A stretch of DNA of 64,000 bases from Gracilariopsis chorda (Eukaryota > Rhodophyta > Florideophyceae > Gracilariales > Gracilariaceae). Of the stretch, positions 19,521 to 61,553 are shown one piece after another; positions within the stretch are counted from its first letter, which is position 1, and each line of letters starts with the position of its first letter. The translations under genes were made by a program, and so were the position numbers. A model generated the notes under the pieces. The model searched no databases and was not told where the DNA came from. It worked only from the letters and a program-made list of their open reading frames with translations. Where the stretch lies: positions 248,001 through 312,000 of the forward strand of contig NBIV01000033.1 in the NCBI GenBank assembly GCA_003194525.1, in the 5' to 3' direction.

Positions 19521-19614
19521 TACTTGATGCGATTTAGATAAAATTTGATCACCTCTAAACTCACACAATGGGTTTTGGTTTGTTTTCTAGAAGAGTCCGT
19601 GACGATTTCTCCGA

Positions 19615-20011: not shown

Positions 20012-20452
20012 CTCCCTCCACAATTCATGGGAGCTGCAAACGGTGTCACATGCTTTCTGAGAAAACGAGCAAAGATAAAAACGATGCGGGTAGGCGGCTT
20101 TGTTTCCATCAATGATGCACAGAACTGAGTTTCGAACCCACGAGCTCCCGTGCGTCACCTGACACGTGGCGCAACTGGTATAAACACCAACCCATAACTT
20201 CCATGTGGACAGTAAGAACTGACCTGCGTCGACACACGTGAGTGCGCGGACGTGCTTAGCTGTGGTGCCCATCACGGGTGCCGCAGAGTTGAGCGGTCTG
20301 GCTATGCCGCATGAGAGAGGGTTCCCGTATTCTATGCCGTACGCCTCCCTTCTCACTTTTGCTCGTCAGAGTTAAAGCGTATATCCTTTGCCTCTCATGT
20401 CGAATCTCCTTTCAAAACCATAGAAAGAACGAGATGGTTTTGCGATAATCTT
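20012..20452 (-). other. 3' untranslated part of element D
   Basis: This holds no recognisable domain. It lies between the end of D's RNase H region and its 3' LTR. Confidence 0.5.
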
Positions 20453-21657: not shown

Positions 21658-23445
21658 ATGGGTGATAAAAGCGCGTGCTCTGTCCCCGGTTCTCCGGTAA
21701 ATCCCTCTGCATCAGAGTCACCAAGCGCACAAACGACTACAACAGCCACCCTCGACAAAGAAGAAATGAACGACGACAACAACATCAACAACCACAGCCA
21801 ACCTCCGAGGCCTCTCGGGCGATACACCACCGGTTTCCGGTCAGTTCCTCTGCCTCAGGGCGATCGACATCCGGTAATACTGGGGAATATGGCTGCTGCA
21901 GCCGACCATCCCTTCGCACTACCACCTTCGGAGGGATCCTCCGGAACCGCTCCGGAATTCAACTGGCCAACCTACAACACCCTGGTGGGGCTCAACCCGA
22001 TGAATCGGAATCACGCGTCGCGCCTGCGCCTTGCCCCGTGGTTTCACCCGGTCGCTGTCCTCAATGAGAGATTGGTCACGGCTTATGCGGATGGCTCAGA
22101 CACCCTTTCGGGGGATCTGCCCAGAGAGGTCACCACATCGTGGGATTGGCGTCACCGGATTGCGATTCCGCGTCACCACCTCCGAAGGAATTTGGGCGAG
22201 ACCGTCGCTGCGGCGCAGACCGCGTTGACGCGCATGGCATACCAACGGCAGAGCCGGGCTCCATTCGATGTACCGGTCCCACCGGAGTTTGGCTTCGACG
22301 TTAGCTACTTCCGCACTCGCGGGGAGGTTGGGTACGGCGAGAACCTGTTCCGCCTCGAGACCCTCGCTTGGAGGAATTTCCCCGCAGCGCAGCAAGAAGC
22401 CCTTTGTTGGGAGCGAGCGATTATTCGGGCGGAGTTCAGGTACCCTCCCCGGCAATACCGGTCCAACTTTCTCCAAAACTTCATCCGCTACGACCGGCGT
22501 TGGCGATCCCGATTCGGGTATTTCATCCCGTACCAGAACGTGGAGATAGAGCGGATTGCGCCGCCTCACCGACTAGGTCGGTATGTAGCACTCCCCGAGT
22601 GGTGGCGCTTCCACGAAGCCTGCCGGGGGTGCTACATAGAACTCCCGCCGGTACTTACGTACCTCGGTTCGCTGCTCATGCAGGATCCCCGGTCGGGGTT
22701 GTGGTCCGTAGTGGTTACGGAGTGGGCGGCCCGCACTGCGGCTTAAACCCTCAACGAGGCGTACGACCAGTATCGTCTCTGGTTCCTTCAATCGCGTGTG
22801 CGGGCAGCGATCCGAAACCTGGATCTTCGCATCCCCCTTGGGGGCCAGGCCAACAATGAAGAGTTCCTCCAATTACTTGGGTACATCAACACCGTTAGCT
22901 GGAGTGAGGTCCCGCTGGAGCAAAGCGGTCGTCTGGATGGCGGCAGCGGTAACACCGGTGGTCCGGGACTCGGTAGAAACACTGCCCTTGCGGGGGATTT
23001 TATCTACTTTGACCCCTGGGAGGTCCGGGAAATTTCCCCCGAGGAGGCGCGCGAGCTTCGCGATACGCCCCGGCATGTGCCATAAGACCACCCTGTTGGG
23101 TACGTCGATTCTGACGACTACTACCGCGCATACGGCGGGGATGACCCAATGCTCGATAACGAACCGGAAGAACCCGGGGAGATGGACGTAGAGGAAACCG
23201 GCGCTAGCGCGGAACCTTTCCCAGAGGGGGTATCTCCGGCCGAGCCGCCTGCTGACCCTTCGGCAGCAAGTTCCGGACCTTCTATCCCCAGCGGGGGGAC
23301 AGCGAATGAAAACGAGATCATCGCACGTTTTCTGCGGGGTGCCGGTCTTAGCGCTGCCGAGGTATCGGGGGATGTCACCACCATGGACGACGCCTGGGCC
23401 TACCGCCTCGCTGGTGGTTACGCCCCGGGCAACGGCGAAGAGTGA
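21658..23445 (+). pseudogene. A: conserved antisense gene next to the 3' LTR
   Basis: About 595 codons on the strand opposite gag-pol begin 58 bp from the LTR. The protein aligns along its length with the intact 620-residue antisense product of element C. Shared blocks include APWFHP, WRxRIA, RGEVGYGENL (C: YGEVSYCENL), RAEFRY, RSRFGYFIPYQNVEIERI, EWAAR, LDLRIPLG and FYFDPWEV-like. No known domain, signal peptide or membrane segment is seen; it is Trp/Tyr/Arg-rich in the core, with acidic, low-complexity ends. About two breaks. The function is unknown. Confidence 0.8.
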
Positions 23446-23639
23446 GCCCCTTTTGTCCAGTTTCCTGGTGTTCCTTCCCTGGCTTTGCCAGTTAGTGTAG
23501 TGTAGTATTGTGGGGAGCTAGCTGCTCCCTTGAATAAACTTTCCCGTTTAGAACGGTGCTTCTCGGTTGAGTTCCCCGTCTTCGACGGACCTTGCCTTGT
23601 TATCCTTTCCTATCGCTCCCCGCTCGCGCTGCAACGTTA

Positions 23640-24385
23640 CCCAACTTGGGCATTAACCAGCGTGGCTGGGGCTGAGTTCCCGTTTGACGGTGGTATCGCA
23701 GGACCTGCGACCGTGGGAGGTGTTCCATTGGCTTCCACGTATCCCCAATGGGGTCGTACCCGAACCAGCGGACGCGGTATTGTAGAATACCATCCTGGTC
23801 CCAGGTGTGTCCGGCAAGTCAGTCTACTACGAACTCTCGTTCGTAGACCTGCCGGCCGTGCCGCGTGGTGGTTGTACGTCCTTGCGGGGGCTGCCCGCTG
23901 TGCGGTATAATGTCCCTTAGCAGGGTGTTCGGCGATAACTCCGGCGTTGCCGTGCACTGTGATAGCGGCCGCTGCTCATGCGGGAAGATATCCCTCAAGA
24001 GGGTGTGTGGTGCCACGGTTTTCACCGGCAAGTCATTCCCCATTTGGGCAGGTTCATTTCCGCTTTCGCGGTATTGCGGGCGAACCGCCAGTCGGCGGGG
24101 GACTTGGGCTCCGCCTTCTCGGTTGAGATCACGAACCGCGAGTTTGCGGGAAGATGACCGCTCCTGCGGAATCGACATTTCCACAATCTCCTGGGGGGTC
24201 CCGTGCGACACGGTGATTGGCTGGCAAACCGCCTCCCTGCCAGGCGCACGAGCGCTCCGCACCATACGTTCCGGCGATGCCGTGGTGTACCCGGCTACTG
24301 ACGGGTTGCCTGGGGCTAACTCCGGTACACCGGTATTTTGGTCAAAATTCCCCTTTGGGGGGTGCCGGGCAGGTGCCGATGACAC
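23640..24385 (-). pseudogene. A: integrase tail with chromodomain
   Basis: A low-complexity Pro/Arg/Thr-rich linker leads to a chromodomain (about 23650-23825). It has the aromatic and acidic signature YEREFVVD, YRVRWFGYDPIGDTWKP and HLPRSQVLRYH. Chromodomains in this clade steer integration to marked chromatin. This part is broken. Confidence 0.8.
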
Positions 24386-33892: not shown

Positions 33893-33948
33893 TATATTCC
33901 TCTTAAGTCGGGAAAGCAACCACGAACGCGGGTGTGTCCCAGCGACAA

Positions 33949-35770
33949 ATGGGTGATAAAATTTCAGACCTCTTCGGGTCACCTGTTCAAACTCTGCCTT
34001 AGAGAAGCAAGCTCCTGCAAAAGCAGCAAACCAGCCTTGTACAAGTGCCAGCTCTTCTTATTATTACTCAACTCCGTTAGATCACACCCTTTCAGAGGAG
34101 AATATGAACAAGAACAACAACCATCCTCCAAGATCGAGTCCATTCGGGAACATCACAACCGGTTTCCGGTCCATAGCCCTGCCACAAGGGAGGCGAGCTC
34201 CGGCACACGTGGCCAAAATTGGCGCACCGTCCTAGCATGGGTTCCAAGTTCTACCAGCCATGGCTCCCTCTGGACCAATCCCAGCGGCCACTTGGCATTC
34301 TTATAATGCCATCATATGGTAAGATCCTATGAATCGGAGTCAACCCTGTCAGCTCCGGCTTACGCCGTAGTTACATCCCATTGCTGCCCTCGACGAGGAT
34401 TTGGTTTGGGCCTACGCGGATGGTTCCGGTACCCTGCCCGGGAATCTACACAGCCTCTTTACCTCGTCGTGGGACTGGCGGCATCGAATCGCAACACGGT
34501 GAAACATATCAGAAGAAACTCGGCAGAATCCGTGGCTGCAGCTCACTTGGCGCTGGTGTGGATCGCATATCAACGGCAGAGCAGGGTGCCTTTCGGTTTC
34601 CCGGTGCCTATTGGCTTTGACTTTGACGTGAGACTTTCCGCACGCGGGTGTAAATCGGTTAGGGAGAACGCCTGGCCAGCCTCGAAACCCTTGCGTGGGG
34701 GAACGTTACCGCTGCACGGCAAGAAGCCATGTGTTGCGAACGACCGATCCTTCGGACTTAATTCCAGTACTTTCCCTGGCAGTCCCGATCCAACTTCCTC
34801 CAAGACGTCATTTTTTATGAACGGCGCTGGCGATTCCGATCCGGGTACTTTGTCCAGTACCAAAATGTGGAGATTGAGCGGAGTGCTCCACTTCACTGAC
34901 AGGGTTGGTAGGTCACACTCCCCGACTGGTGGATTTTTCACGAGGCCTGCTGGGGTTGCTACGTTGAGCTCCCACCGGCACTCACGTACCTCGGTTCCTT
35001 CCTGGTTCAGGATCCCAAGTCGAGACTTTGGTCAGTAACTATAACCGAGTGGGCTTCCCGCACTGTGGCGTATAAAGTTGCTGAAGTTTATGGCCAGTAT
35101 CGACTATGGGTCATCCAACGGCGTGCGTGGGCCGGTGTTCGCAACCTGGAACTCAGAGTTTTCCTTGGGTTTATTGCCAACAACGACGAAGTACTTCAGT
35201 TACTTGGTTTGATTGACAGTATTGACTGGAGCAAGGTCACGCTGGAACAGAGCGGTTGGCTTGAGGGCAGCGGTGGCGGTACCGGTGGACCGGGTCTTGG
35301 TAGAAACACCGCCTTCGCGGGGGAGCTCATCTACTTCGATCCCTGGGAGTTCCGGCAGATTCCCTCCGAGAAAGCAAGAGAACTCTGCGACGCACCGCAG
35401 CACATGCTGGACAACCACACGATTGGGTATATCGACTACAACGATTACTACCGCGCCTATAACGGGGATGACCCAAAGGTCGATAACGAGCCCAAGGAAC
35501 CAAGAGACCTGGAACTAGATGTTGCCAACATGGTCGTAGACGAATTCCCGGAGAGGGTGCCTCCGGTTCCCACTCTCTGACGGCGAGTGCCGCGCTTCCA
35601 CTCCCCAGTGGAGTTACAGTAAATGAAAGCGATCTCATTGCCCGTTCCTCCGCAAAGCGGGTTTTAGCGCTGCCTAGGTTTCGCGTGACGTCTCCGCGAT
35701 GGCAGATGCCTTGGCCTACCGCTTTGCGGGTGGTCACGCCCGGCAAGATGGGGAGGGGTTGAACCTCTAA
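33949..35770 (+). pseudogene. B: antisense gene remnant next to the 3' LTR
   Basis: It starts 57 bp from the LTR with MGDKISDLFGSPV, matching MGDKSACSVPGSPV of element A. The second half is the best preserved (GQYRLWVIQRR, LELRVFLGFIANNDE, IYFDPWEF). It is the third copy of the antisense gene in the window and is broken in several places. Confidence 0.75.
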
Positions 35771-40400: not shown

Positions 40401-41550
40401 TCGAGATTCTTTATGGAGTCCACTCGATTAGAACTCGCCGTAGCATTTTCCTGTGATACAGGTGTGGCAGCGAGTTCCAATTTTTCCACGGTGTTCGACC
40501 TTGAAACAACAGTTAACTCCTCCTCCTTTTACGATAGTTCGTCAGTGGTGGGGATGGCTTCTTCATAAGAGGCGGCGATTCCCAAAACATCGGCGGTCAT
40601 CATCTTCGTCGTGAGCATCCCAAAGGGGTGTGAAGTGATGCTTCCAATTATTTGGTTCTTTAGCAGATAATGAGGGCATTGGCCAAGATTAGCAAGTAGT
40701 ATCCAGAAAGGGGCATCCGGGTAACGTGAATAATTCCGTTCGCCAGCACGTGCGCGTATGTCTCGTATAATGATGACAGAGGTTGAATACCCCGAAGACC
40801 GTGTGGACGGCAATTGGCTTGCACCCAGACTTGGGACTCAGGCAGTATAGAAACAGAGGCTGCGATTCGAAGTTTGATGGACTCACGAGACGCAGGCGGT
40901 GATTCCTGCGCAGCAGGCAGTGGGACTTGCTCATGTGAAGCATGCTTCATTGGGCTACGGATTATCGGGACTGAAGATACGTCGTCCAGCTCCACACGCC
41001 TAACGCAGGGCCTGATTGCGTAGACAACTCTGTCGCAGTATGCAAATACCAATGTGAATGGAGCGGCGAATGACCGACAAATAATGAAATCGAGCTTCAC
41101 AACGGAGCGCCCCGACTGCACGACCAAGTCGACGGTACCCAGCGTTTTTAACGGATTATTGTTTGCATCTGCGACGTTGGGAACCGTTTTGGAATGGCAA
41201 CGATACCGCAATTATGGGGGTAGCAATGACTCCATGATGAAGTTGGGGCCTGCACCTGTGTTCAGGAATGTCAGAACTCTCACCATAAAATGGGTTTCAA
41301 GCCCAAAGTTGGCATAAACCTTGTGGTTGCGCTTGGCTAAGGCCAAGACTCTATCCAAGATCTCGTTGTTTTTATTCCCTATCCACTGGCGACGTAGCAG
41401 AGAGAAATGTGCAGAGTCCGCGTCTGCGGTGTCTTTCTTTGAAAGTATTTTCACCGGAGAGCGGGGCGGTGACGCCTCGGGCGTCAACATCCTCACCTCT
41501 GAAGACCCCTCTCCCAAACATGAGACTGCATTAGTTAGTTTTCCTGGCAC
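37496..41550 (-). pseudogene. B: pol region
   Basis: Remnants of protease (LNTGAGPNF in place of the usual DTG motif), reverse transcriptase, RNase H and integrase (CTECSKNRV zinc-finger part, IAIDILGPL) align in order with element A. There are many breaks. Confidence 0.88.
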
Positions 41551-41822
41551 GTTCCCACCGTAGGCGTTAGTCCAGGGTCCTCGACCACGAAAGCTTCATT
41601 TTGGGGGCCGGGGTTCTTATCCACATAAGCAGTGGTTGCGTCGGATGTTTGCATGACTTCCCGATTCGGGTTAATTGAAGCTATCCAAGCAGGCAGGATA
41701 TGTGGCAAGGCATGTGAGAAGTCCGTTTTAGCAAGGAGCTAGGAAGCCATCGGGAGGGAACCTTTCTCCTCTGGCGTGAGCGCCTCTTAGGTTGCCACAA
41801 CCTTGGCCATAGCCTTCACTGA

Positions 41823-43261
41823 TCAAAGAAACTGAGGAGATGTATGGCCATCGGTGTAGCAAAAGTGGCAAATCAGAGCCAGCACGCCAAAGTTCCAGTT
41901 AATATCCAGAGCGTGGAAGAAGCGTACCGCAGGGCAGATGTCATTCCATCCAGGCCGTTGATAACGGCATTGACCGTTCATAAACGAGACTCGTAGTGGC
42001 TGAATGCGATTGTTCTCCAAGTACAATACGGGGTTTGCTTGCACCGTTTCGAACGTGTCCTCCGTCGATGACGTTACTTTCGTGGATGGTATAGACACAC
42101 AATCTCCATGTGCTAAATGCACAGATTCGTATCCCTGTTCGGGGATTCTATCCATTAAAAGTGAGGGCGATGAGGAATTACCCTCCAGCACCAACGCTTT
42201 GCAGTGCTCAGACCGAGGATTAAGAGTTCTTGCACGACGTGCTTTCCCTTCCGCTCGATGGTTTTGAACAAGTTCGAGGTAGGTGATTTTCTGCTTGTCC
42301 TGGCAGTGACGAGTTACAGGACTCCGGATTGCTGGGTCAAGGTCATCGATGAACATGGGACAGCGTTCCCCTGTGGGGTATACATTCTCAAAACGGTGGA
42401 AGGCCTTGTTAATGCGCACCGAGAGCCGGTTTCAGTCTCGCATGAGCGCTGACGAGTATCTCGAAAAGCAAGTATTGTCCCCTGAATGGCGGTATTGGTT
42501 GCATAGGAACGCAATAAATATTGCACACCCTCCGGCCTGCACTTTACTTATCCCTTTGAGGCACGAGATGATCCTCTGACAGAGGTGTATTGGTCCTCTG
42601 CCACTACCCGTAAGAAAGATGGTAATGCCAAATAGGCTTATCCCCCCTTCCTTCCGAGGATATCGGCTTCCGCTACAAAGCGGAAAAGAAAGTCCAAAAA
42701 TATAGTTGGGTCTTCTCCAGTAACATAATGGGTACGCAGTGAGAGTTTCACATGTTTTATATACTCTTTTTCCTTCCCTGTGTCACGGGGTGTACGTCCT
42801 GAAAATGAATATTCAAGCCTGTAGTATCGGTATGACATTAGTTTCCGATACAACGGGTTCTTTGGTTTTAGTTCCGTGGGGCCTGGGCATCGTTTCCCCT
42901 TGCTGCAGGTCCGAACCAAACCTTGGGTGGCAAACGACCACTTAGAGCGCGAAGAACGGCCTCGTTTCTCGTCCTACAAATCGGAGTCTGAGGAACTAGA
43001 ACCATCTCACTGGTTTTTAGATGAAGCCAATTATGTCGTAGAATCCGAACCCGAGGGATCTCGTTTGTGTTTACGCTTATAGCGGCGCTTCTTTCTTTCA
43101 GCATGCTGGTCATGATGTGACGCAGCTGGTGCCGGATCACCTGGGGACGGTTTATCCATTAGGATAAACTGCTCTAACGTCTCCAGACGGGCACAAACTC
43201 GATCAAATCGAGAGTCAACTGCTTCTATGAAGGTGGCGGGTTGCTCCAAACTCTCTAACAT
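41823..43261 (-). pseudogene. B: gag remnant
   Basis: Homologous to the Gag of element A (blocks near KAFHRFENVYP, ELKPKNPLYRKLMSYRYYRL). It is heavily broken. Confidence 0.85.
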
Positions 43262-43810
43262 AAGTTGACTTCAGACCATAATATATGGAGATCCTCCGCG
43301 ACCACCTTTGTAGGGGTGTCCATCATCACCTAACGGAGGGTTTGTGAATCCCCAACAAGGGTGTCATGGGCGGGCCAGAAAGTGTGAACCTGAGATTCCA
43401 TGGAATTTCCCTGGATGGTGTTATCGCCCATCAGACGGGGTTCTAGTGCGACGGCAGCCACGGCCGGAGCCGGATGAGCACCATGCATGGCATTTGATAA
43501 CGGGGTCGAAGTGAAGTTCCAGGATTCTAGGGGTTCGTTTGAAGTCCTAGACGTGGCACCCCCAGCGTGGCTGCATTTCGCCCGAGTCAGGATCCGAGAA
43601 ACAAACCGAACTTCGAGATTATTTCCACAATTATGGGAGCGGCTGTGCGTAATCGCAGGCTCCGCAGAGGAGGTTTTCCTCGAAATGAGGGCGAAACTTT
43701 ACGATGGGAAAACAACGGAGCTTCCGGAAACTGAGCAAAAGAAACGAAATCTTAAAAGATGAAACCGAGCACGAACCCGATTCTAGGTTTTCTAGGTCAG
43801 GGGACCACTT

Positions 43811-44605
43811 TGCATTGCAATGCCAGGACGCTGGAGTACACCGAAAGATGTTTGAGATCTTTCGTCGTCAGAGCTGAGCCCAATTAGGTAGAGCCCTGCC
43901 AGAAGTGGCATGACTATGTTGGGTTGTAAGGCCGACGCCACCCTTTGAAAGTTGCACAGGGAGGTCGGGACAAGAATCAGGTATGCGCAGGAATGTTTTT
44001 TGGGGGTTTTTGTCTTCTAGAGACCTGGGTTTTCGACGTTATTGGCGCGCTATCACGAGCCGTGGGTAGCAAAAAAGCCACCATGTAAAGGGAAAAAGGA
44101 AGAGGGAGCTGAGTGACGAGTGTCGTTATGAAGACTAATGGCAGTGCCAGTGAATGAACCTTGTACAGAGCAAACACCGAGAGAGTTGGAATAACAAACC
44201 GAATGCTGGGGTCCTTTAGATGGGCAAGACGGTTAGACTTTCCGTAAGCTACGGTGCGTTCCTCCAAAAGGCAGTAGAAAACACACCACGTTGGTCAAGT
44301 CTGGAGCCATTTCCCCAGGTTAAGGTCCCTTTTTGGGCAAGATTTACTGGTTCAATGGCAACTCCCCAGCGCATTAAATACTTACTATTCCAGAAATGGG
44401 TGTAAAAATATTAAACTGATATAACTAAATTTCTCCATTTTGGTGGTTTATGCTTACTACTGTGGCCAACCACCAATTCACTCTTCGGTGTTCCACGTGT
44501 CAAATCCAGTATTAGTGGTCTTAGTTCAAGCAATGACTACATTACCAAAGCATTCGGGAAATCAACCAGGTACCAAGAATTTTTTCCTGATGGAATTGCA
44601 CTTCA
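43811..44605 (-). repeat. 5' LTR of chromovirus B
   Basis: Partner of 33126-33892. TTATC follows it. Confidence 0.88.
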
Positions 44606-44610
44606 TTATC

Positions 44611-48200: not shown

Positions 48201-48329
48201 ATCTCTAGGGTTGGAGATATCCAAACGCTTGAGCAGAGCATCACATTGTGCGTTGCGCGCGTCGGCAGAAATCCCCGCCGTGTCGTTAGAACTACGAAGA
48301 CATCAAATCCGGCTTGACGACTTATGCAA

Positions 48330-48662
48330 TGACGGGCCCTTTGCGCTGGCAAGACGCTAAGAGTGTTCCGTATGGTATTCAACCCAAACTGTAGATTAGA
48401 AACCTGTAAGATAGTTGGGTTAGTAGAGTTGAATACACTTAGAAGACCAGAGCTGACAACAACCTCTGTACGCAGCCGGATACTGACAACCGTACTAACC
48501 ATTACTGATAATCTTCAACTTGTCTATCTGTTCTCTTCAGGTTAGAGACAGAGAAGGTGCAGTAGCCAGACTAAATAAACTTTATCACTACCGGAACAGT
48601 CTGTTAGGTTCGATCCGTACGGGAGCTCACGTGAAAGTATGTCTTACAGCCACACATTCACA
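48330..48662 (-). repeat. 5' LTR of element D
   Basis: Homologous to 19615-20011 but without the 64-bp duplication. Its inner edge is set by loss of similarity, so it may be off by some tens of bases. Confidence 0.7.
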
Positions 48663-50103
48663 CTCTGAGCAATGGAGCTCGTTATATCCCACACCTGGTT
48701 TTTGGTGAGGCAGACGATTTGGTCTTGAAAGTTGTTGAAATCACTCATGGGCTCATGTAATTGGTTTTTGCTACTCAAAAGGCCGGTATCTGCATGTTTT
48801 AGTCAGACCTACAAGCTACTGCAGTCAGAAAAATTGTTTTTCACTCCCCACTTAAGTGTGATCGATGAGATGAGAAATCTCACTGCCCTTGCACAGCTAC
48901 TCCATCCAGACATAAAAGCACCTCATTACCAGCTTCTGTTATGCAGCGATGCTAACACACAAAGAGAAGTCGCTCCCTGATCCCCCATGTTCATCCTTCA
49001 CCGTACGAAAACGTCAACTATGGCTCGTAATTCTGATTTTCTGAAACTCAATTTTCTGTCAAACGATCCTCAGAGAGTGGGGAAATCAAGCACTTGATTT
49101 ATCAATTCCTAGGGAACAACTGAAGTTTCTAGATCACAAAATTATTCCACTCGCATGAATGAAACTCCTCTGCGCATATTGATGTATTTGAGTCTGAAGC
49201 GTTACTCTTTGGCCACAGGTGACTGGGTACGCAACCAAATCCGTGATGGTGCTCCGTTTCTTTTTCGATCGACTCACAAATCTTGTATATTTCCGTCGGA
49301 CAAGCTCATATATCTGCGTCAGCGCTGCAAACGAAAGACCCATCAAATATCTGCATTATTAATAGCTGGGGAACTCCAGATTATACCGATCTAGATCCCC
49401 TCAGAAATTAATCCTGCAGATGTCCCGTTACGACGGTTTTGAACTAGCTCTGACTGCGTTGGCCCCCGCGACGCAGAAACGATATTCACAAGTCATGAAT
49501 CGAATTTGGGAATGGTGCGAACAAAATCGGAGAAGCCGCTCTCTAGATGAAATTGAAAGAGTGATTGAGGAGTATTACTTCTCCATCTATCACTCCAACG
49601 AAGGAGCTGGAAAGAGTATCTGTGCCCAGACAAGGACTGCAGTTTAATTTTTTTTGCCCGAATTAAAACGTGAGCTACCGTTTTTGCATGAAGTATTGCT
49701 TGCTTGGGACCGACTAGTGCCTATCCAGCAATACAATCTCTGTGCTCTTGCTTTAGTAGTTGCTGTGGCCTCCTTTGAAAATCGCCTCTACGCGTTCGAG
49801 TTTCGCCGTTCTATCCTGTTCTATTTTGACCTTTACCTACCGTCTAGTGAGTTAATAGCGCTCCAATACCAAGACATACTCCCCGCCGAGTGACATGAAT
49901 CGCATGCTGGAGTCCTGATTTGCTCAGAAGTAAAACCTCCCAGCTACAAGAAAGTGGGATTATTTGGAATCCCAGGCTTTGAAAATGGTTACAACGAGTT
50001 TTTGTGCTATACAAAAAGTGGTCCGAGTTCACAGCCCTTTTCGCTCTGCAATGTGCAGTTCAACGAACGCACTCGTCGTATTAGTCAAAATCCCCTTCGT
50101 TGT
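48663..50103 (+). mobile_element. DIRS-like tyrosine-recombinase retroelement fossil (E), left part
   Basis: About 48732-48980 encodes an RT-connection/RNase H-like segment (LKSLMGSCNWF, LLLCSDANTQ). From 49420 on, a tyrosine recombinase follows, with an N-terminal core-binding domain (TQKRYSQVMNRIWEWCEQN) and the block LPSSELIALQYQDILP of DIRS-type recombinases. Tyrosine recombinase after RT/RNase H is the DIRS signature. The fossil is broken and is cut on the left by element D and on the right by element C. Confidence 0.6.
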
Positions 50104-51016
50104 TGTAGTGCAATACATTCCCGCGTACGGGCGATGGTGAACCTCATATCTGAGGTGTACTCGGTGCGAGCGATGAAGCGGGATGCATGAATTTTAGCCC
50201 CCGTTTACCGGGCTAATTAGCGGTCTGGTTACCCAGGGTGGTTATGGGAACATTCATATTTTGTGGTACTTGCCTGGCAAGGGTGGTGGACACGTGGCTA
50301 CAGCCCCGGCCAGGAGGCCCAAAACGGCTACTTATTTTAGTATAGTTTAGGGGTTAATTTTACTTAGGCTAGTGCACTACCTACTGTACTGCACTGAGCT
50401 AGTACTTGAGCGTCGGCCGCACGGCGGCGAGCTCACCAAGAAAAGTAACAAGAGTTCGGCTCTGACTCTATTCGCCATGCGAAGTGTCTAACTCCTCGCG
50501 GAGGTACACCGCTTGCCCGATAGTTTCACCCGACTCGCACCACCGAGGAGACCGTGCTCGTCGTACCCAGTGGGTTGTGACCACTCGTGGTATTCGTTGT
50601 TGTCGTGTGACCGCCCGTACAGGCCCTATCTCCGCCCCAGTTTTGGGTATTGATATTACCGACGTGTGTCGTGAGACCGTGAGACCATCCCTTCCCCTCA
50701 TATCCCCTAACCGCCGCGCGGTGCGTGTTCGTGTGTGTTTATCGGCACCCCCCTCCGGGGTCTGTTCCCGCTTTCCGCACGCCCCCGTCGGGTGGTCCCT
50801 TTCCCTCTTTTGTTCCACTGTTCGCAGGCTACTTCCGGACCAGCCGTGGTTCCGACCCGTTCTAACCCCTAAACCTCCGAGGTACATCCAGGCTCCCGAC
50901 GGAGTTACACCCGTCATACGGGACACGGAGGGCTCTACCCAGCTGAGCCTACCTCTCCAAGAGAGCAAGGCTTCGAGCTGCCTTGGGTGCCTTTCCCACA
51001 CCGGGATTGCACCACA
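50104..51016 (+). repeat. 5' LTR of chromovirus C
   Basis: It begins TGTAGTGCAATAC and ends GGGATTGCACCACA. The terminal inverted repeat (TGTAGTGCAA/TTGCACCACA) is longer than the usual TG..CA. Confidence 0.96.
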
Positions 51017-51018
51017 AA

Positions 51019-51038
51019 TGGTCTCCCGACCTAGAACG
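51019..51038 (+). promoter_or_regulatory. primer-binding site of chromovirus C
   Basis: TGGTCTCCCGACCTAGAACG lies two bases after the 5' LTR and resembles the sites in A and B. The tRNA was not identified. Confidence 0.75.
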
Positions 51039-51165
51039 GGTTTGGCTTTCAATCCGGCCTGTCGGAAGTCCGCTTCCCCTTTTCCCTTTTATCCCTTTTT
51101 GCTCATTCGTTGAGATTACCAAGCCGTGGGACTGGTGAAGTAAGCCGTGGACGGCTATCTGCAGT

Positions 51166-53207
51166 ATGCTACCCACAGCTCCGAGTTCCCCCAGGAATGG
51201 TCCGCAACGGAACGCCGCAGCGGCGAGATCACGAAGGTCCGTTCCGGAACAACTACTTACCAATGCCGTCGGTCTGGAATCCCAAGGAATCCCATCGGCA
51301 ACCTCGGTGCCTCGAGCCGTGACAGCTGTGGCCACTACGCCACCTCCGGTGGTCGAAACGCCGTCGGCTGTCCCCCCGAGACCAGGGTCGCCTAAGTACC
51401 ATCTCCTCGAGTCGAGAATCGACATTGCCAATGTGGCCCACGCCTCCCTCTCGCAGCAAGTTACCGAGTTGGAACGGCGATGGAGTGACTCCCTGGCTCG
51501 GGATTATTCGGGAGATATTCGTCTCCTGAGAGCTGATGTGAATTCCATTCTGGAGTGTCTGGGTACTCCGGCTGCCTTCGTAGAAGGATATCGGGAGTTC
51601 GTGGAGGAAGTTAAAACCCATATGATGCGGGTAACCGGACGTATGGACACGCTGGAAGCGTTGCTCAGAGAAGACCTGAACGCTCCGAGACAGGAGGAAG
51701 TGAAGGTCATCTCAACCCAACACCGCTCCAGTCACCTCCTCCGTCACCCTGGAAAGAGAGTTCATCGTTATGAAGTTTCGCCAAGTTCCGACTCGGAAAC
51801 AAGTTCGAGTAGCTCGTCTTCGAGATCATCGCGTGAAGGGAGAGGCCGCCGTCGCGGAGAAGAACCTAGTTCGAGGGCTACCTACACCTCCCATGGAGCA
51901 ATCCGTGCGCGGGAGAAAGGTCGCCGTCATTTCGGCTTGAAGGAATTGAAACCGACGAATCCCCTTTACAGGAAGCTGTTGTCCTATCGTTATTACCGAT
52001 TGGAAGACTCTTCGGGCACTCGAAGTTCGAGAAACACCGGTCGGGTGAAGGATCTCATACGTCGTATGAATGTGACGATGCTTAAGCAGAAGTTCTCCGG
52101 TGAAGATCCGATCCTCGTGTTGGATTTTCTGGCCCGCTTTGTGCAGGAAGCAGACGTCCTCGAAATGAGTGAGGCGCAGGCATACGTTGCGTTGCCCTAC
52201 TTTCTTTCAGGAATGGCTGAAGATCAGTACAACTCGGTCAGGGGTTCGTCCAGGGCCTCAGAAGGAGGTGTTACGTGCTGGCCCGAGGCTGTACACTACC
52301 TGCTCAGGTCGTACGCGACGGGAACTGCAATCAGTCAAGCCATCGTGGCGGTTCGCGATACGAAACAGAAGCCTGGTGAAACGGAAACGTGGTATTCAAC
52401 TCGCTTGAATAAAGCGTTTCATCGTTGTGGAAATGTGTTTACCGCTTTTGAGCGTTCCTCCATGCTGGTGGATGGTTTAGATCCTGGTATCAGGGCACTG
52501 GTGTCCCGCTACAGGGAAGAGAAGCGCAAGGCGACGTATCTGGAACTGGTCCAGTACGCGCAGGCTGAGGGTGACACCCTCAGAGCGAGAGACCCGAGGC
52601 GTCGGTCGTCGAAGGCTCTCTTCGTCGAGAACGAGACTTCCTCGGCATCTCTCCCTAACCCGGGACCACCTTCCGGATTTGCGGATAACATCCAGTATCT
52701 TGGCAGTCTTGAACAGTCGTTGGCACCTCGGAACTGCCGTCCACGGTTACACCCCCCGTGGTAGATCCGGCCTTTTACGCAAACCCCGGTCGGGTTCCCC
52801 CAGCCCCGCTAGCCTACGCGTCGAGCGCCACAAGACACTCCCGCCCGGAATGGTCCAACCCGAAGCAACTAGCATTCCAACCACAACACCCTCAGCACCG
52901 CGGAATGATGTCCCACGCCACCGGAACACGTTCAGCCCCGCTGATTTGCTACATTTGTTACCTTGAAGTTCATACTGCGTCGCAGTGTACCCTCCCCATT
53001 CGCGAGATGTGGAAGATCGTGGGAAATTATGAGAATCTCCCACCGGAGCATAAGGCTCGTGTCCCGAGTAATTCGTATGAAGACGCAAAGGCTGCGGTCC
53101 ACAATGCTCAAGCTCGAGAAGCCGCGAAAACCGCGAACGGTAACAACCTTAACCTTTCGGAACGGGCTCAGCCGCACCCAGCGGTCGATTCGGTCCCGAA
53201 AAACTAA
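51166..53207 (+). pseudogene. C: gag
   Basis: A Ser/Arg-rich linker (SETSSSSSSSRSSREGRGRR) precedes the capsid-like core (FGLKELKPTNPLYRKLLSYR, RLNKAFHRCGNVF, YLELVQYAQAEGD). A zinc knuckle, CYICYLEVHTASQC (CX2CX4HX4C), lies near the end. Homologous to Gag of A. Broken. Confidence 0.88.
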
Positions 53208-53209
53208 TC

Positions 53210-56200
53210 TTGGGAGTCTCCCCCACGGGAGGGGTGTCTTCCAAGCCGAAGTTGGAGACGCCTGAGGCGCCACCGCTTCGCTCCCCTGCCAAAATCCTTA
53301 CCAGGAAACTGGCTCAAGAAGACGTGAGCTCGGACCACTTAGTGGCTCTGCGTCGTCCGTGGATACGGTCCCGTAACCTCCGCATCCCGGATCGAGTTTT
53401 GGTAATGGCCAAGAGGAACTATAAAGTTTATAGTGACCTCGGTCTCTCTAACCAGTTCATGGTTCGTCAGTTATCTGTCCTGGATACAGGTGCCGCTCCG
53501 AACCTGATCAGTATCGGGATTATTCCACCCGCCATGCGGAAATGCATTCGCATTGGTCCAAGTCTGGATCTGGCGGACGCTAATAACAACCCGCTCCAGA
53601 CTCTTGGAACAATTCCTCTGGTACTCAGACTAGGCACCTACGTGGTGAAGTTGGACTTCATCGTATGCGATTCTCTTGCTGCACCGGTCATCCTCGGTTG
53701 TGATTTCTGTGACCGCTTCGTGGAAGCTATCCGCCCTCGCTCCAGATCCGTGGAATTGGCCAACGTTTCGACCATCCCGATTGTACGGAAGCCCTTGCGA
53801 CACGCCTCCCGTAAACGGGTACCTTTACCTGCTGCTCAGGAAGCGTCCAATGTGGATCGAGCATCTACGAAGATTCGCGTCGCGGAACCAGTTTCGATCC
53901 CGAAGGAATCTCAGGTGTGGGTCTCAGTAACATCCAAACACCACGGGTTGCAGGTTGTTCAACCGCTCCCCTCGCTCTACGAACAGCGCCGTCTCGCATT
54001 AGCAAATGGGATCGTATCCGTCGAGCCGGACAAACCCTTTAAGGTTCTCGTTGCTAACCTCGGAACTACCACTCAGTGGTTGGTTAAAAACCAGGTCCTG
54101 GGCAACATGCTTCCGCATCCATTGGCTATCCTTCCTACAAAGATTCCGATATCCGACGTTCTCGGAATACAAGACCCTAAGGAGGGGGAGGAGGTCCCGT
54201 TCGTTCCGTTGGATCCCGCCCGGGAAAGTTCAGATTCGACTGTCGAAGAAGCTCAGAAGAGCACGACTTCAGCATCGGCAGATACTGCGTTAGACCCAGA
54301 ACAGGCTTTGGATAAGTTGGACCTGGATCACATTAATGAATCTCATCGTGAGAAGTTTCGTGACATGCTCAGGGACTTTACCGCCATGTGGGACGGTTCC
54401 CTGGGGACGATAGGGGTAACCGAACATCGGATTGATTTGTTGCCGGATACACGGCCTATTGCACAGCACCCGTATCGGGCAGGCCCTAAAGCAAGGGGGG
54501 AAGAGAAATCTCAGGTGGAGAAGATGCTGCGAGCTGGAGTTATCGAAGCAGCACAATCCCCTTGGGCTTCTCCTGTTGTCCTTGTTCCGAAAGCCGATGG
54601 ATCATGGCGTTTCTGTGTGGATTACCGCCGCCTGAATGCGGTTACTGTCAAGGACGTCTATCCGATTCCACGAATGGACGAGTACATTGACTCCCTGGGG
54701 AGCGCAACGGTGTTCACTACCCTCGATGCCATTTCGGGATACTGGCAGGTCCCTATTAGGAAAGAAGATCGTGATAAGACCGCGTTTGTGTGCCATCAAG
54801 GACTATATCGCTTTAAGCGAATGCCGTTTGGACTAACGAATGCCCCAGCTACATTCCAACGGGCAATCGATATCCTCTTGGCGAGGTTCAAATGGACCAG
54901 CTGTCTGGTATACTTGGACGACATTATAGTGTTCTCCAATAACTTGGACGATCACCTGTCCCATGTCCGGGAAGTCTTGACAGTGCTCCGCAACGCAGGC
55001 ATCACCGTGAAGCTGGGAAAGTGTGAGTTCTGCGCCGATTCGGTAAAATATCTGGGGCACATCATCCGCCCCGGACAGCTTTCAATCGATGAAGCAAGAG
55101 TGAAATCACTTTGAGAGGCGAAACATCCGACTAATCAAACGGAGCTTCGATCCTTCCTAGGACTTTGCAATGTATATCGCCGATTCGTCCCGAACTTCGC
55201 CGACTTGTCAGCACCGCTTAACGCACTCCTCCGGAAAGGACAACCTACCGAACTGGACGTCTTTGACGAGGCTGAGTCGTCAGCATTCTCGTCTCTTGTC
55301 GACGCTGTAACGTCCCCGCCAGTTCTGGCCTTACCGCACCCGGACTTACCCTTCGAAGTGGATACTGACTCAAGTGCCCACCAGGTGGGTTGTGCGTTGT
55401 TTCAAGTCACGGAAGAAGGAGAAAGACATCCGATCGGATATTGGTCACGTTCGTTGAACGTTCACGAGCGCAATTACTCGGTGTCCGAGAAGGAGTGTCT
55501 TGCTGTTGTTTGGGCGTTGGCAACGCTTCGCCCATACCTTATGGGTAACCATTTCAAGGTTCACACCGATCACTCGGCCCTCCGTTGGCTACTCGAAATT
55601 CGAGAACCGTCGGGCCACCTCATGCGTTGGCGTCTCCGACTCTCGGAATTTACATTTGATGTCCTCTACAAGAAGGGATCCCTGAATACTCAGGCTGACG
55701 CCCTATCGCGCTTAGGAACATCAGCGGAAACCGAACCGGTCGACGATCTGGAAATACCATGTTTCATGGCACAATCCCCGGAGGGGACGGAAGAAGACGA
55801 CCCAGACGTGAATGGGGATGACATCTGTGACGATATTCTGGCTGCAAACCCTACGGATCCTCCGGATGACCAGGTTGTTCCCATATCCCCTGAGGAAATG
55901 ATCCGTGAACAACAGCAGGATCCTTTCTGTGCCCAGATTCGTGCCCGTCTTAACGGGGGCGCACAGATACCCTTTGCGGTGAACGATCGAGGCTACCTAG
56001 TCAGGTTGCTGACACGGGCCCCACAGATCGTTGTACCTCACACGCTGCAGCAGCGCGTCTTGCATCTATCGCATTACGCGAAGTTGGGTGCACATCCCGG
56101 CGGGAGGAAACTATACCTGACCCTTCGCAGGGACTTCTATTGGCCTGCTATGGCATTTGACTGCTATGCAGTTCGCCGCTCGTGCGTGGAATGTGCGAAG

Positions 56201-57625
56201 AATAATGTGAAACTTCGGAAGTACTCGAAGAAGTTAACACTATTCCCGGCACGGGCGCCACTCGAATATGTCGCTATTGATATCTTGGGCGAGCTTGTCA
56301 AAACCAAACGTGGTTACAAGTATCTTCTCGTCATTACTGACCGCTTCTCAAAGTTGGTGAGAACAGTACCGCTTAAACGGATTACCGCGGACGTGGTTGC
56401 GCGTGCGTTCGTAACCCACTGGGTCTTTACTTACGGCCCGCCGGTACACCTACTCTCCGACAACGGATCTCAATTTACCTCAAAGTTCTTTCAGGACGTA
56501 TGTAGAATCTTGGGAATCAAGAATATGTTTACTACCACCTACCACCCGCAGTGTAACGGACAAGTGGAACGATTCAATCGTACTATGCTCAACGCACTGC
56601 GCGCGTATGTCGCGGATCACCCCATGGAATGGGACTTGTACACGGACGCTATTACGTACGCGTATAACACCCAGGTACACCGGGTCACGACCCTCGCTCC
56701 ATTTGAGCTGGTCCTGTCTCGGATTCCGCCACCCATGGCTATTGAAGCGCAACCGAACGTCTCGGGGTACCCTTCACCAAGGTTATATCGAGATTCCTGG
56801 AAGGAATGGTTGAAGAACATGGTCCCTACCGCCCGAAAGGCTATGGGAAAAGCCCAGGAGGCATACAAACAGAACTTCGACGCGAAGATTCGTTCCCCGA
56901 TACCCCAGGTCTCGGAAGGGGATTCTGTCTTCCTGCGAAAGGAATATTATAATCCCGAAAAGGAGAAGCACCACAAGTTGTCACCGATAGTGAATGGACC
57001 CTATCGGGTGGTTTCCGTCGCCGACGACACAGTCGTACTGGACATCGATAACCAGTTCGAACGCGTCTCACGCGACCGCGTAGCCCACGCGCCTGCGCCC
57101 CCTGAGGGCTCATCAACGCTCGTGACAATCCCGGAGGATGACCTCGTAACTCCGCCAACGGATAATCTGCTTCCGTCCCGCCCACCCGTCTTACCGCACC
57201 CGAAACGGGGACTCTCGGATCTTCCAATTGCCGATCAACCGGTTGGGCGCGCCGCGCGTATCGTGCAACGCACGCTTGACCCCAAACGCCTAACCGTTAC
57301 TCCGCCCGCGGAGGTCCTTCATCCTGAACCCACCGCCCTCTCACCTAAGGAGGGGGAGGGACGGGAATCGATCGCGCCATTGCGGAAGGAAGCGCCGGCG
57401 TCGGACGGTGTCCCGTTTCATACGGCATCGTCGGATGAGCACCCCCGGAGCAGAGAGGAGTTGAACGCATCGCGAAGCGAGAAGGCCGTCTCCGCGGACC
57501 CGGATGCACTCCTGTCGAGCGAGTCGCTGGGTAGCGAAGGAGGAAGTAGTGAACCGGACTCGGTGTGGTCACTTATGTGGCGAATGATATCTCCGAGCAC
57601 GGAGCACATACAACCTCGGTCATAA
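53210..57625 (+). pseudogene. C: pol (protease, RT, RNase H, integrase)
   Basis: In order: protease with LDTGAAPNL (about 53480), reverse transcriptase with LVYLDDIIVFS (about 54905), RNase H with DTDSSAHQVG and TDHSALRWL, then integrase with its zinc finger (HLSHYAKLGAHPGG, CVECAKNNV) and core (AIDILGEL, LSDNGSQF, QCNGQVERFNR). This is the Ty3/gypsy order. Nearly whole, with about one break. Confidence 0.95.
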
Positions 57626-58189
57626 CCAGTTTCGTGGTGAGCTGAAAAGCAACCGCGGACACGGAGAGTGTGGTTGACACTGTGTGCGTTACCGCAGAGC
57701 CCCACAAATGGACACTGTGACGCCACTGTCACGCGGACGAAGCCCGAAGTTCCAAACCGTGGAAAGGTGTACACGTACATACCGCCGGCCGGCGTCAGGA
57801 GTACAGTCAAAACCCGCGTCGTGGAAAGACCGCGCGCGACACTTGCCGCCAGCGGCCAGCCAATCACAGTGTGTGATGCATGGCAATCCGCCTCCTGGCG
57901 TCGGAACCGTAGTGAACCGCCTCCCTCACCGTGAACGGTCAAACTCACCAGAGTTGCACGGGTCGCGTGGGAGAAGAGCTCGCGAGCTGCGAGTCAATAG
58001 GGGAATCCGGTTAGAACGGAAGGCCCTCCCCCCCACAAGGAGAGGATTAGGAAGCGGAAAGACCGCAATGCGGTATCAAGTCCCAGCACTCGCAGCGTCG
58101 AGGAATGCTGACTTTGCCCGCAGGGTCGCGCCAATTTCAGGCAAGTCCCCTCACAGGGTTCTCCCCTTAAGCCCTGCCATGACGGGTCA

Positions 58190-58412
58190 GGAGCCGGCTA
58201 CGTACGACCAGGAGTTTGTCGTTGACCACATCGTGGATCATGTTCTGGACTCCAAAGGAGTGTGGTTTTACCAAATCCGATGGTACGGATACCCCCCGGA
58301 AGAGGACACATGGGAGCCCATTCAGAACCTTCCTCGTTCCAAGGTGATAACCTACCACCGCCGGACGCGGTTCCCACTCCCATCCACTTTGGACATGGCC
58401 CAGGTTGGGTAG
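58190..58412 (+). other. C: chromodomain
   Basis: TYDQEFVVDHIVDHVLDS, then YQIRWYGYPPEEDTWEPI and NLPRSKVITYHRR form a full chromodomain with the aromatic-cage and acidic positions seen in chromoviral integrases. It is separated from the integrase core by about 600 bp of low-complexity sequence and is not read in the same open frame as pol. Confidence 0.85.
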
Positions 58413-58427
58413 GACGATACACTGCAC

Positions 58428-58748
58428 TATGCAGAAGATTCCGAAGACGGAAGAGAAGTCTCCGAAGAGAAGAGGACACAGGAAGAGATCTGGCTACAGA
58501 AGGTTACACGAAGTAATGGACTGGATAGGGAAACCAATGGTCATTGGACGTCACACCGCCTAGCGGTCCGACCGAAGTAACGGTTTAATGAAGAATACCG
58601 CCTAGCGGTCCAGCATGAAGATGCTATGAAGAAGAAAAAGAAGAGTCCGGACATACGGATATAGAAGAAGGAAGTCGTTTACCACAAGCTATGGAGCGTT
58701 AAGCGCTAACCTATATCAGGTGTGCGTGCCACGGTCCAGGATCCTGAC
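58428..58748. other. C: spacer between chromodomain and antisense gene
   Basis: About 320 bp with purine-rich stretches (GAAGAAG-like) and a repeated CCGCCTAGCGGTCC motif (about 58557 and 58600). The sense genes end on one side and the antisense gene on the other, so both polyadenylation signals should lie here. No gene is seen. Confidence 0.55.
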
Positions 58749-60611
58749 TTAGGATGAGCCGCTCGTTGGCGGTTGGTAGTTCGCAGACGCGAAAGCCAAT
58801 AACTCGCTCACGCTGGTGAGGTTGGAAGGCGCAACCACTCCAATGGACTGGAGGTGAGCCCTGAGGGCAACGGCCTGAGGGTCCACGGGGACCGGAGATG
58901 CGGTAGACGGAGAAGCAGCCGCACTGGCGGCCATATTCCAGCCATCTGGAGCAGCCACATGCTGGCCGGATCCGTCGAGATCGTTGACCATCGCCGTTAC
59001 CGGGGCTACGGCCTCCTCCACCTCATCGGGGTCGTCATCCACCATTGGATCATCCTCGTAGGAACCGTGCCATTCATCGGAAAACATGAACCCAACCGGG
59101 TGGCCTCGCGGAACGGAGCGTGGTACATCGCGTAACGCTAGCGTGTGAGCCCGTGAAGTCACGGATACCTCCCAAGGGTCATAGAAGACGAAGTTGCCAG
59201 CGTTTGGATTTCTCCGGCCTGGAGAGCGATCATGCCTGGAAGGCTCACCGTCAGGGACGTTGGAGACTGAGACTGTATCCCAGTTAACCATATCGATGGT
59301 GTTCAGAAGGCACTGAAGCTCATCCACATTGGCTTCGGATCCCAGAGGGATATAGATATCCAATCGGCGGATAACCTGGCGTAGGTGAGGAGGAATGTAC
59401 CACAGACGGTTCTTGTCGTACACCTCCCAGAGGAGAAATGCGGCAACGCGAGCAGCCCATTCGGCGAGGAAGAGAGTCCAGTAACCGGAATCCGGATTGT
59501 TGATTAATCGTGAACCGATGTAGCTGAGGCACGGAGGCATCTCCGCAAAGCATCCCCTCGGGACTTCGAACCTGCTCCACCAATGGGGAAGAGGTGCATA
59601 CCGGCCGCGCATCGCGGATGGACGGAGCCTCTCGACCTCGAGATTTTGGTATGGTACCAGGAACCCGAAGCGGGAGCGCGCCTTTCGCTCAAACCGGAGT
59701 CGGTCGAAGAAGGATCCGCGATGATTCGGAAGACGAAGATATCGGAACTCTGCACGCAGAATTGGGCGCCTCCAGAGGAGCATCCCGGCTTCTATTGGAG
59801 TGGACCGGAACGGTGTAGATGGCTGGTAGGCAGCAAGGTTCTCGCAGTATGAGACTTCACCGTAGGTACGGTACCGCGAGAGGTCAAAGCTGTATTCCGT
59901 TGGTACCAGCTCATCCGGATAACTCGCGCGGGCGAGACGGTCGTAGGCGACCTTGGCCATCCCGGCACGGGCTTCATTCAGCGTCTCGAAACCATATCTG
60001 GTGCGCTTCCGTGCGAGGAACTGTGGCTCTACCGCGATACGCGTTCTCCAGTCGAAGGAGTCGACCATATCCCGGCCTAGTCCCCCTGGGAGCTCGCCCT
60101 CCTCCACATAGGAGTCGATGAGGTCCGAGTCGGAAACCCATGTGGGGTGGAACCAGGGCGCACGCGAAAAGAGGAGAGCGTCTTCCCGGGGATTGCGGGC
60201 CCAAAGTGTCGATGGTGACACCCAGCCGGCGGCGGTCGCAGTGATCGGTATCGCTTGGGCGGAATTCCAGGCGGCGATACTCGCGGCATCCGAGGCATCC
60301 AAGGTTGGAACATGAGACGATCCTCCAGGCAGAGGCAAGGAGAGGAACCCAGAGGATGGGTGACGAACCCACGACCCCGGCGTCGCGAAGGAAGGTTGTC
60401 CGCTCGCGGAAGTCCCCTGCGGGGCGCCCGCAGGCGGGTTGTTCGAAAACGGAGTGTTGGTCATAGTAGAGAGGGGCGCAGAGTCTGTTGAAGAAGGTAC
60501 TGAGGGTTGATCAGTTGTAACCGTGTTGGTACGGGGGACCGGTATCTCGGCGATTCCCTTGTCGGGACTATTTATACCCTCGCGCCTCATCTCCTCACGT
60601 TCTATACTCAC
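58749..60611 (-). CDS. C: conserved antisense protein, 620 aa, intact
   Basis: This is one open frame on the strand opposite gag-pol. Its first ATG lies 32 bp inside the 3' LTR, and it ends about 340 bp from the chromodomain stop. Architecture: a Pro/Ser/Thr-rich N-terminus (about 1-130); an ordered, Trp/Tyr/Arg-rich core (about 150-500) with APWFHPTW, WRTRIAV, YRTYGEVSYCENL, RPILRAEFRYLRL, RSRFGFLVPYQNLEVERLRP, LPHWW, FLAEWAARVAAFLLW and NFVFYDPWEV; an acidic stretch (EDDPMVDDDPDEVEEAV); and an Ala/Ser/Pro-rich tail. There is no signal peptide, no clear membrane helix and no Cys-His cluster. The core is conserved in elements A and B, so the gene is an old part of this lineage. I recognise no domain. 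Plant Tat-lineage elements also carry extra antisense ORFs in this position, but I see no sequence link. Confidence 0.85.
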   Translation of the reverse strand: MSIEREEMRREGINSPDKGIAEIPVPRTNTVTTDQPSVPSSTDSAPLSTMTNTPFSNNPPAGAPQGTSASGQPSFATPGSWVRHPSSGFLSLPLPGGSSHVPTLDASDAASIAAWNSAQAIPITATAAGWVSPSTLWARNPREDALLFSRAPWFHPTWVSDSDLIDSYVEEGELPGGLGRDMVDSFDWRTRIAVEPQFLARKRTRYGFETLNEARAGMAKVAYDRLARASYPDELVPTEYSFDLSRYRTYGEVSYCENLAAYQPSTPFRSTPIEAGMLLWRRPILRAEFRYLRLPNHRGSFFDRLRFERKARSRFGFLVPYQNLEVERLRPSAMRGRYAPLPHWWSRFEVPRGCFAEMPPCLSYIGSRLINNPDSGYWTLFLAEWAARVAAFLLWEVYDKNRLWYIPPHLRQVIRRLDIYIPLGSEANVDELQCLLNTIDMVNWDTVSVSNVPDGEPSRHDRSPGRRNPNAGNFVFYDPWEVSVTSRAHTLALRDVPRSVPRGHPVGFMFSDEWHGSYEDDPMVDDDPDEVEEAVAPVTAMVNDLDGSGQHVAAPDGWNMAASAAASPSTASPVPVDPQAVALRAHLQSIGVVAPSNLTSVSELLAFASANYQPPTSGSS

Positions 60612-60629
60612 GTTCGTTTTCGGCCCTTA

Positions 60630-60640
60630 AGGAGGGGGAT
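60630..60640 (+). promoter_or_regulatory. polypurine tract of chromovirus C
   Basis: AAGGAGGGGGA lies two bases before the 3' LTR. It also falls within the short leader of the antisense gene. Confidence 0.8.
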
Positions 60641-60642
60641 GT

Positions 60643-61553
60643 GTAGTGCAATACATTCCCGCGTACGGGCGATGGTGAAACTCATATCTGAGGTGTACTC
60701 GGTGCGAGCGATGAAGCGGGATGCATGAATTTTAGCCCCCGTTTACCGGGCTAATTAGCGGTCTGGTTACCCAGGGTGGTTATGGGAACATTCATATTTT
60801 GTGGTACTTGCCTGGCAAGGGTGGTGGACACGTGGCTACAGCCCCGGCCAGGAGGCCCAAAACGGCTACTTATTTTAGTATAGTTTAGGGGTTAATTTTA
60901 CTTAGGCTAGTGCACTACCTACTGTACTGCACTGAGCTAGTACTTGAGCGTCGGCCGCACGGCGGCGAGCTCACCAAGAAAAGTAACAAGAGTTCGGCTC
61001 TGACTCTATTCGCCATGCGAAGTGTCTAACTCCTCGCGGAGGTACACCGCTTGCCCGATAGTTTCACCCGACTCGCACCACCGAGGAGACCGTGCTCGTC
61101 GTACCCAGTGGGTTGTGACCACTCGTGGTATTCGTTGTTGTCGTGTGACCGCCCGTACAGGCCCTATCTCCGCCCCAGTTTTGGGTATTGATATTACCGA
61201 CGTGTGTCGTGAGACCGTGAGACCATCCCTTCCCCTCATATCCCCTAACCGCCGCGCGGTGCGTGTTCGTGTGTGTGTATCGGCACCCCCTCCGGGGTCT
61301 GTTCCCGCTTTCCGCACGCCCCCGTCGGGTGGTCCCTTTCCCTCTTTTGTTCCACTGTTCGCAGGCTACTTCCGGACCAGCCGTGGTTCCGACCCGTTCT
61401 AACCCCTAAACCTCCGAGGTACATCCAGGCTCCCGACGGAGTTACACCCGTCATACGGGACACGGAGGGCTCTACCCAGCTGAGCCTACCTCTCCAAGAG
61501 AGCAAGGCTTCGAGCTGCCTTGGGTGCCTTTCCCACACCGGGATGGCACCACA
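60643..61553 (+). repeat. 3' LTR of chromovirus C
   Basis: Nearly identical to 50104-51016. GTTGT, the target duplication, follows it. Confidence 0.96.

Follow-up and report, generated by a model that had tools for sequence, protein, structure and literature searches.

A long reading frame that lies antisense to gag-pol in chromodomain-bearing Ty3/gypsy elements of the red alga Gracilariopsis chorda is a real protein gene under purifying selection. The stretch of DNA analysed here (the window; 64,000 nucleotides of contig NBIV01000033.1) holds three elements with this gene, A, B and C, and the 91.3 Mb assembly containing the window was searched for further copies.

Element C (50104–61553), a Ty3/gypsy element with a chromodomain, carries gag-pol on the plus strand and the antisense frame on the minus strand. 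Its 5′ LTR (50104..51016, +) and 3′ LTR (60642..61553, +) are 99.56% identical over 913 columns, with the target-site duplication GTTGT preceding the former and following the latter. Between them, also on the plus strand, are a gag-position ORF without a Pfam domain (51166..52764), a pol piece with the reverse transcriptase (53210..55114; PF00078), a second pol piece with RNase H and integrase (55205..57625; PF17917, PF17921, PF00665) and an ORF with a terminal chromodomain (57684..58412; PF00385, residues 178–222). LTRs, the order reverse transcriptase, RNase H, integrase, and a chromodomain after the integrase identify C, and likewise A, as Ty3/gypsy chromoviruses. C thus shares the domain order of chromoviruses generally, whereas the extra conserved antisense gene sets the present elements apart from them.

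In C, this gene occupies 58749..60590 (−) as an uninterrupted frame of 613 codons from an ATG at 60590 to the stop at 58749, and the frame is open back to 60626. The earlier note, made from the sequence of the window, had reported an open antisense frame of 620 codons, and this is indeed present at 58749–60611 (−) as a GTG frame; the likely ATG start gives 613. Small indels between C copies directly upstream of the ATG shift the upstream frame, the ATG itself is present in 30 of 30 copies (the best-scoring 30 of 71), and all 613 codons are stop-free in 27 of these 30, so that the ATG at 60590 is the likely start codon of the C gene. A chance ORF was considered and rejected, as the longest open run in this frame is 625 codons versus at most 368 in 1000 dinucleotide shuffles.

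Element A has the same layout in reverse, with reverse transcriptase, RNase H, integrase and chromodomain (the chromodomain piece at 23600..23818, −; PF00385) opposite the antisense frame. With gag-pol on the minus strand, its antisense gene is read from the plus strand as a first open piece (21658..22746, with an in-frame stop at 22744–22746) and a later part (22747..23445, with a second in-frame stop at 23083–23085). Remnants of the gene in B (34307..35577, +) are broken in several frames, with profile hits at 34307–35035, 34371–34499, 34762–34896 and 34912–35577. The claim that A, B and C all carry an antisense gene of about 600 codons therefore holds as to its presence, but the frame is open only in C. 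The conserved blocks quoted for it (APWFHP, GEVxYxENL, RAEFRY, RSRFGxxxPYQNxExERxxP and EWAAR) were found in the translations, DPWEV being located in the later A piece, and the description of A and C as different subfamilies with different LTRs is in line with a repeat analysis of the window, which found no repeat family common to the LTRs of the two. Element B as a whole (33131–44606) is an older chromovirus-like copy with LTRs about 78% identical and 72–80% DNA identity to A in repeat blocks, and both its antisense gene and its pol have decayed. An inverted copy of an A-type LTR at 12337–13112 (91% and 84% over two blocks) has no obvious partner element and is perhaps a solo LTR.

Selection within families was measured in the 30 best-scoring copies each of C and A, a choice that favors intact ones. 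In these samples the antisense frame contains 4 stops in C and 15 in A, versus 394–625 (C) and 220–631 (A) in the other five frames, and its pN/pS is 0.59 (C) and 0.39 (A). In family A, nonsynonymous and synonymous changes stand at 258:126 among singletons versus 73:85 among changes shared between copies, where the neutral expectation is about 2.6 (Fisher p 7e-6); the corresponding counts in family C, 66:30 and 10:10, do not differ significantly (p 0.13). In 9 of 12 ORF bins of family A, variability is highest at third codon positions, and no clear pattern of codon periodicity was seen in family C. Diversity within the ORF of family A (0.023–0.052) is lower than in the downstream flank past the ORF end (0.053–0.121), without being consistently below the values on the LTR side (0.028–0.100). 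The way in which shared changes differ from singletons suggests that the copies that left descendants mostly carried a working gene, and the protein may therefore act preferentially on its own element.

Comparison of sister lineages found elsewhere in the genome gave a dN/dS of 0.22 for L065/L067 (dS 0.32) and 0.20 for C/L066 (dS 1.34). For these two pairs, four of the five control frames yielded 1.34–2.19 and the codon-mirror frame 0.32–0.33, and all five control frames hold 11–30 stops. A third pair, L068/L069, had a ratio of 0.48 at a dS of 0.09, with control frames down to 0.61–0.67, and a fourth, L062/L063, had a ratio of 1.35, close to the 1.39 of the integrases of the same pair, which fits two copies drifting after insertion. 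In more distant lineage pairs, dS is saturated. Taken together, the frame-specific lack of stops, the dN/dS of 0.20–0.22 in two sister pairs, well below 1, and the depletion of amino-acid substitutions among the shared changes of family A establish a coding gene and bear out the earlier view that selection on the protein had preserved it. As this selection acts on the amino-acid sequence, the gene is translated.

These measurements also bear on the possibility, named in advance as one that would overturn the claim, that the conservation is the shadow of a coding gene on the sense strand. The codon-mirror frame does show low ratios (0.475 in A, 0.77 in C, 0.33 in C/L066), and some A/C similarity can be read from it (124 bits) and from another sense frame (summing to 108 bits). 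However, third codon positions lie opposite one another in the mirror frame, so a low ratio there is expected, and this frame is interrupted by 625 stops in the 30 copies of C and 583 in those of A. In a six-frame comparison of A with C, the antisense frame scores 320 bits and no other frame exceeds 124, this maximum belonging to the mirror frame with 21 stops in each sequence. We regard the shadow explanation as refuted and leave it practically no probability. Codon usage did not single out the antisense frame, its correlation with gag/pol being 0.28–0.47 compared with 0.51–0.53 for the mirror frame.

The same evidence weighs on a role for the antisense transcript as a regulatory RNA in which the open frame is incidental. 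Such a transcript could base-pair with about 1.9 kb of genomic RNA, and antisense RNA of LTR elements can itself regulate, according to the accessible sections of two papers (PMC7264820, PMC10186651). Selection at the amino-acid level and frame-specific absence of stops nevertheless need translation, which refutes the RNA as sole explanation and makes that account very improbable; an RNA role on top of the protein would be compatible with the data.

Intact copies of the gene are abundant in the assembly. C-type antisense places were stop-free over the matched part in 55 of 71 scored (71 of 1683 candidates were scored), and A-type places were stop-free within the 376 residues searched in 90 of 109 (109 of 1719 candidates; counted by eye), a number that includes the window's own A copy, where the query piece was cut at its stop. 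The RNase H-integrase piece of C was stop-free in 41 of 56 scored copies (by eye, on first rows with short second pieces left out), and the antisense frame is thus about as intact as pol. An antisense gene lies within 3 kb downstream and on the opposite strand of 42 of the 56 C-family integrase copies, and six more (C70, C148, C594, C161, C270 and C188) were identified from a census of the core, so that 48 of 56, most copies of the family, carry the gene. The remaining eight have no antisense gene nearby among the matches listed, and at least two of them (C300 and C947) are near a contig end. The flanks were examined for integrase and chromodomain in L061–L063, out of L061–L069, and Pfam searches placed both opposite the antisense gene in the same position and orientation at all three loci, which represent two lineages, as L062 and L063 are one. 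An ORF antisense to gag-pol and downstream of pol, the position typical of the antisense genes named aORF-3R in plants, is accordingly found in C, A and L061–L063.

Eight lineages with uninterrupted frames are present in the genome (C, L066, A, L068/L069, L065/L067, L061, L062 and L064), with 34–61% identity among them; the frames of L064 and L068 run to the end of the stretch analysed. Between lineages, integrase identity is 61–79% and antisense identity 39–62%, and the closest integrase pairs (L061 with L062/L063, 74–79%) are also the closest antisense pairs (51–62%), the remaining pairs being too similar to rank. A search of about 5.8 billion proteins with a single protein, a profile and the core region recovered eight relatives. 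One of these, P0002 (G. chorda protein BWQ96_10156, 'hypothetical protein'), matches six places in the genome at 97–99% over most of its length. Three others, P0005, P0006 and P0008, reach best identities of 46, 41 and 38% in the genome and, having no close match there, come from elsewhere. In a phylogenetic tree, P0003 joins A and P0001 joins C, both with 100% bootstrap support; should these two proteins likewise belong to other species, the subfamilies separated before the species did. We consider it about as probable as not that a whole clade of red-algal chromoviruses is ambisense by ancestry, with a third, antisense gene of a family known nowhere else that was acquired once, has passed vertically across host species and is needed for propagation. 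Separately, BWQ96_10156 lacks about 30 residues that are encoded by the uninterrupted frame at L061:3585–5465 (−) and are similar in L062; the annotated gap (intron) in this protein looks wrong.

This distribution makes it improbable that the frame is a host gene which a single element picked up recently and which hitch-hikes in its copies. LTR elements are known to capture host genes (PMC7264820, in the sections available), but a gene common to eight lineages at such divergence, and under selection within them, argues against a recent event, and none of the eight database relatives is named as a host gene, the one that carries a name being the 'hypothetical protein' above. An ancient capture of a host gene would be compatible with these observations.

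The C protein begins with a stretch rich in small residues and proline (59% P/S/A/G/T in residues 1–140), followed by a core (about 144–500) that holds most conserved columns, many of them invariant (R, E, G, P, W, Y or C) among the relatives, and that is slightly basic in its parts 141–300 and 301–430. Residues 491–613 have a pI of 4.1 and form an acidic tail, and a short conserved segment is present near the C-terminal end. Across 18 sequences no convincing transmembrane stretch was detected (maximum 19-residue hydropathy 0.97–1.85, the highest segment, in L064, including E and K), nor was a shared basic cluster, and a lone CxxC occurs in 6 of the 18. An Env-like aORF was ruled out on the lack of a convincing transmembrane segment in these sequences and on the antisense rather than sense orientation.

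Profile searches of the kind proposed in the earlier note, which had recognised no domain, returned no match above chance in Pfam, NCBIfam, PHROGs, PADLOC or PDB sequences, and at the level of sequence the protein appears to have no recognised domain. Scanning ten members against Pfam at E values up to 5 gave two other families, each hit by a single member (E 0.053 and 0.11), and no match to Transposase_28 (PF04195); the antisense protein likewise had no Pfam match to a bZIP domain. No similarity to the element's own gag or pol was found, and a derivation from either was rejected, as the profile matched only the antisense pieces of A, B and C among 931 window frames of at least 40 amino acids. 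At the reach of pattern scans, no relatives were present in viral contigs or prokaryote genomes, and a viral or prokaryotic origin was set aside within that reach; an integrase query also gave no match in viral contigs. The protein may have an undescribed fold.

Some of these features would suit a different job for the same gene, that of a structural or enzymatic accessory such as a particle component or a host-silencing antagonist. The large core with its many invariant columns fits this, and the divergence between A and C, with 40% identity in the antisense protein, is nearer that of the gag-position ORF (51% over 439 columns) than that of RNase H-integrase (67%), as in structural or host-facing proteins. 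On the other hand, the protein resembles neither the gag-position ORF nor any library family, and no positive pointer to a host target was found, and we treat this alternative as possible but tentative.

The reading we prefer, at roughly even confidence, is that a Ty3/gypsy chromovirus group in a red alga has this frame as a genuine accessory gene, that these elements are ambisense, and that the product is a soluble regulator or cofactor serving the element's own propagation. With a gene on the strand facing gag-pol, in the interval from the chromodomain to the 3′ LTR, the element would be ambisense. Transcription would start from a promoter within or beside the 3′ LTR, or a short way into the gene, and would yield an RNA convergent with the gag-pol transcript. 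About 50 bases separate the C start codon from the edge of the LTR, which would place promoter elements in the LTR, in the short gap or in the gene itself. No TATA-like motif was found at a common place across C, A, L061 and L062, as the motifs seen lie within the gene in C (TATAAA, 14 bases in) and A (GATAAA, 6 bases in) but at −343 in L061 (TATATA) and −167 in L062 (TATAAT). Rather than an envelope, the product would be an intracellular protein, soluble and globular apart from its disordered tails. It would serve the propagation of the element, most probably by acting, as regulator or cofactor, upon the transcript or the integration complex; such roles have been proposed for the antisense proteins of other LTR elements. 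A regulatory role is the most likely reading, held with modest confidence and by analogy, since the antisense proteins of LTR elements with a known role or location (Grande gene23, HBZ and APH-2; PMC7264820, PMC10186651) are nuclear or regulatory.

Genes that lie antisense between pol and the 3′ LTR are already well established, as described in the available sections of three papers on plant elements (PMC7264820, PMC11963269, PMC6317226). These plant genes (aORF-3R or eORF-3′R) include gene23 of maize Grande and those of rice RIRE2 and Silene Retand. Like the present gene, they run opposite to gag-pol, start and end downstream of pol and before the 3′ LTR, and are retained by most members of a family. 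According to the same sections, these genes have no known function, although some encode a domain conserved through a lineage, such as Transposase_28, which is present in 97% of Retand clusters. Retand, however, belongs to a non-chromovirus lineage of flowering plants (PMC11963269, in the part available), whereas the present gene is carried by chromodomain elements of a red alga. The proteins differ as well, with PF04195 in the plant antisense proteins (Retand) and no Pfam match of any kind in the present one. RIRE2 is a member of the same Tat group as Retand.

Outside plants, brtn is an additional antisense gene of the Ty3/gypsy Boty-like elements of Botrytis cinerea (PMC8365987, PMC7264820, in the parts available) and, judging by title and name, would resemble the present gene in being antisense in a non-plant Ty3/gypsy element. 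HBZ and APH-2 of deltaretroviruses are minus-strand genes beside the 3′ LTR that are expressed from that LTR and regulate the element (PMC10186651, in the sections available). The present gene shares their minus-strand position beside the 3′ LTR and, putatively, their expression, but HBZ is a bZIP factor of 31 kDa and the present protein has 613 residues and no recognised domain. In the openly licensed literature we found no description of such an antisense gene in red-algal chromoviruses, while subscription papers may differ. Both the protein family and its conservation in chromodomain elements of a red alga appear to be new. The suggestion of novelty for a chromodomain lineage that has an antisense gene of its own agrees with the literature found, with the caveat that the fungal Ty3/gypsy element Boty, which may or may not have a chromodomain, carries antisense brtn.

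One survey, in its available part, describes plant LTR elements as having extra ORFs of such heterogeneity that it questions whether these are functional at all (PMC6317226). In contrast, chromodomain elements here have kept a single antisense family through eight lineages within the same genome, at a dN/dS near 0.2, and its many near-identical, mostly open copies provide a tractable system for what antisense genes do for LTR elements.

Other mobile sequences are also present in the window. A 655-codon frame at 725–2692 (+) has a terminal Ulp1-type peptidase domain (PF02902, E 9e-34), a domain common in DNA transposons. DDE transposase frames are found at 9675–10760 (−; PF13359), adjoining a small DUF6818/Myb-like frame at 8918–9601, and at 15011–15967 (−; PF04827/PF13359); the pairing of a DDE transposase with a Myb-like frame is that of Harbinger-type transposons. 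Finally, two copies of another repeat, 85–87% identical, are located at 19600–20014 and 48315–48665, outside the three chromoviruses.
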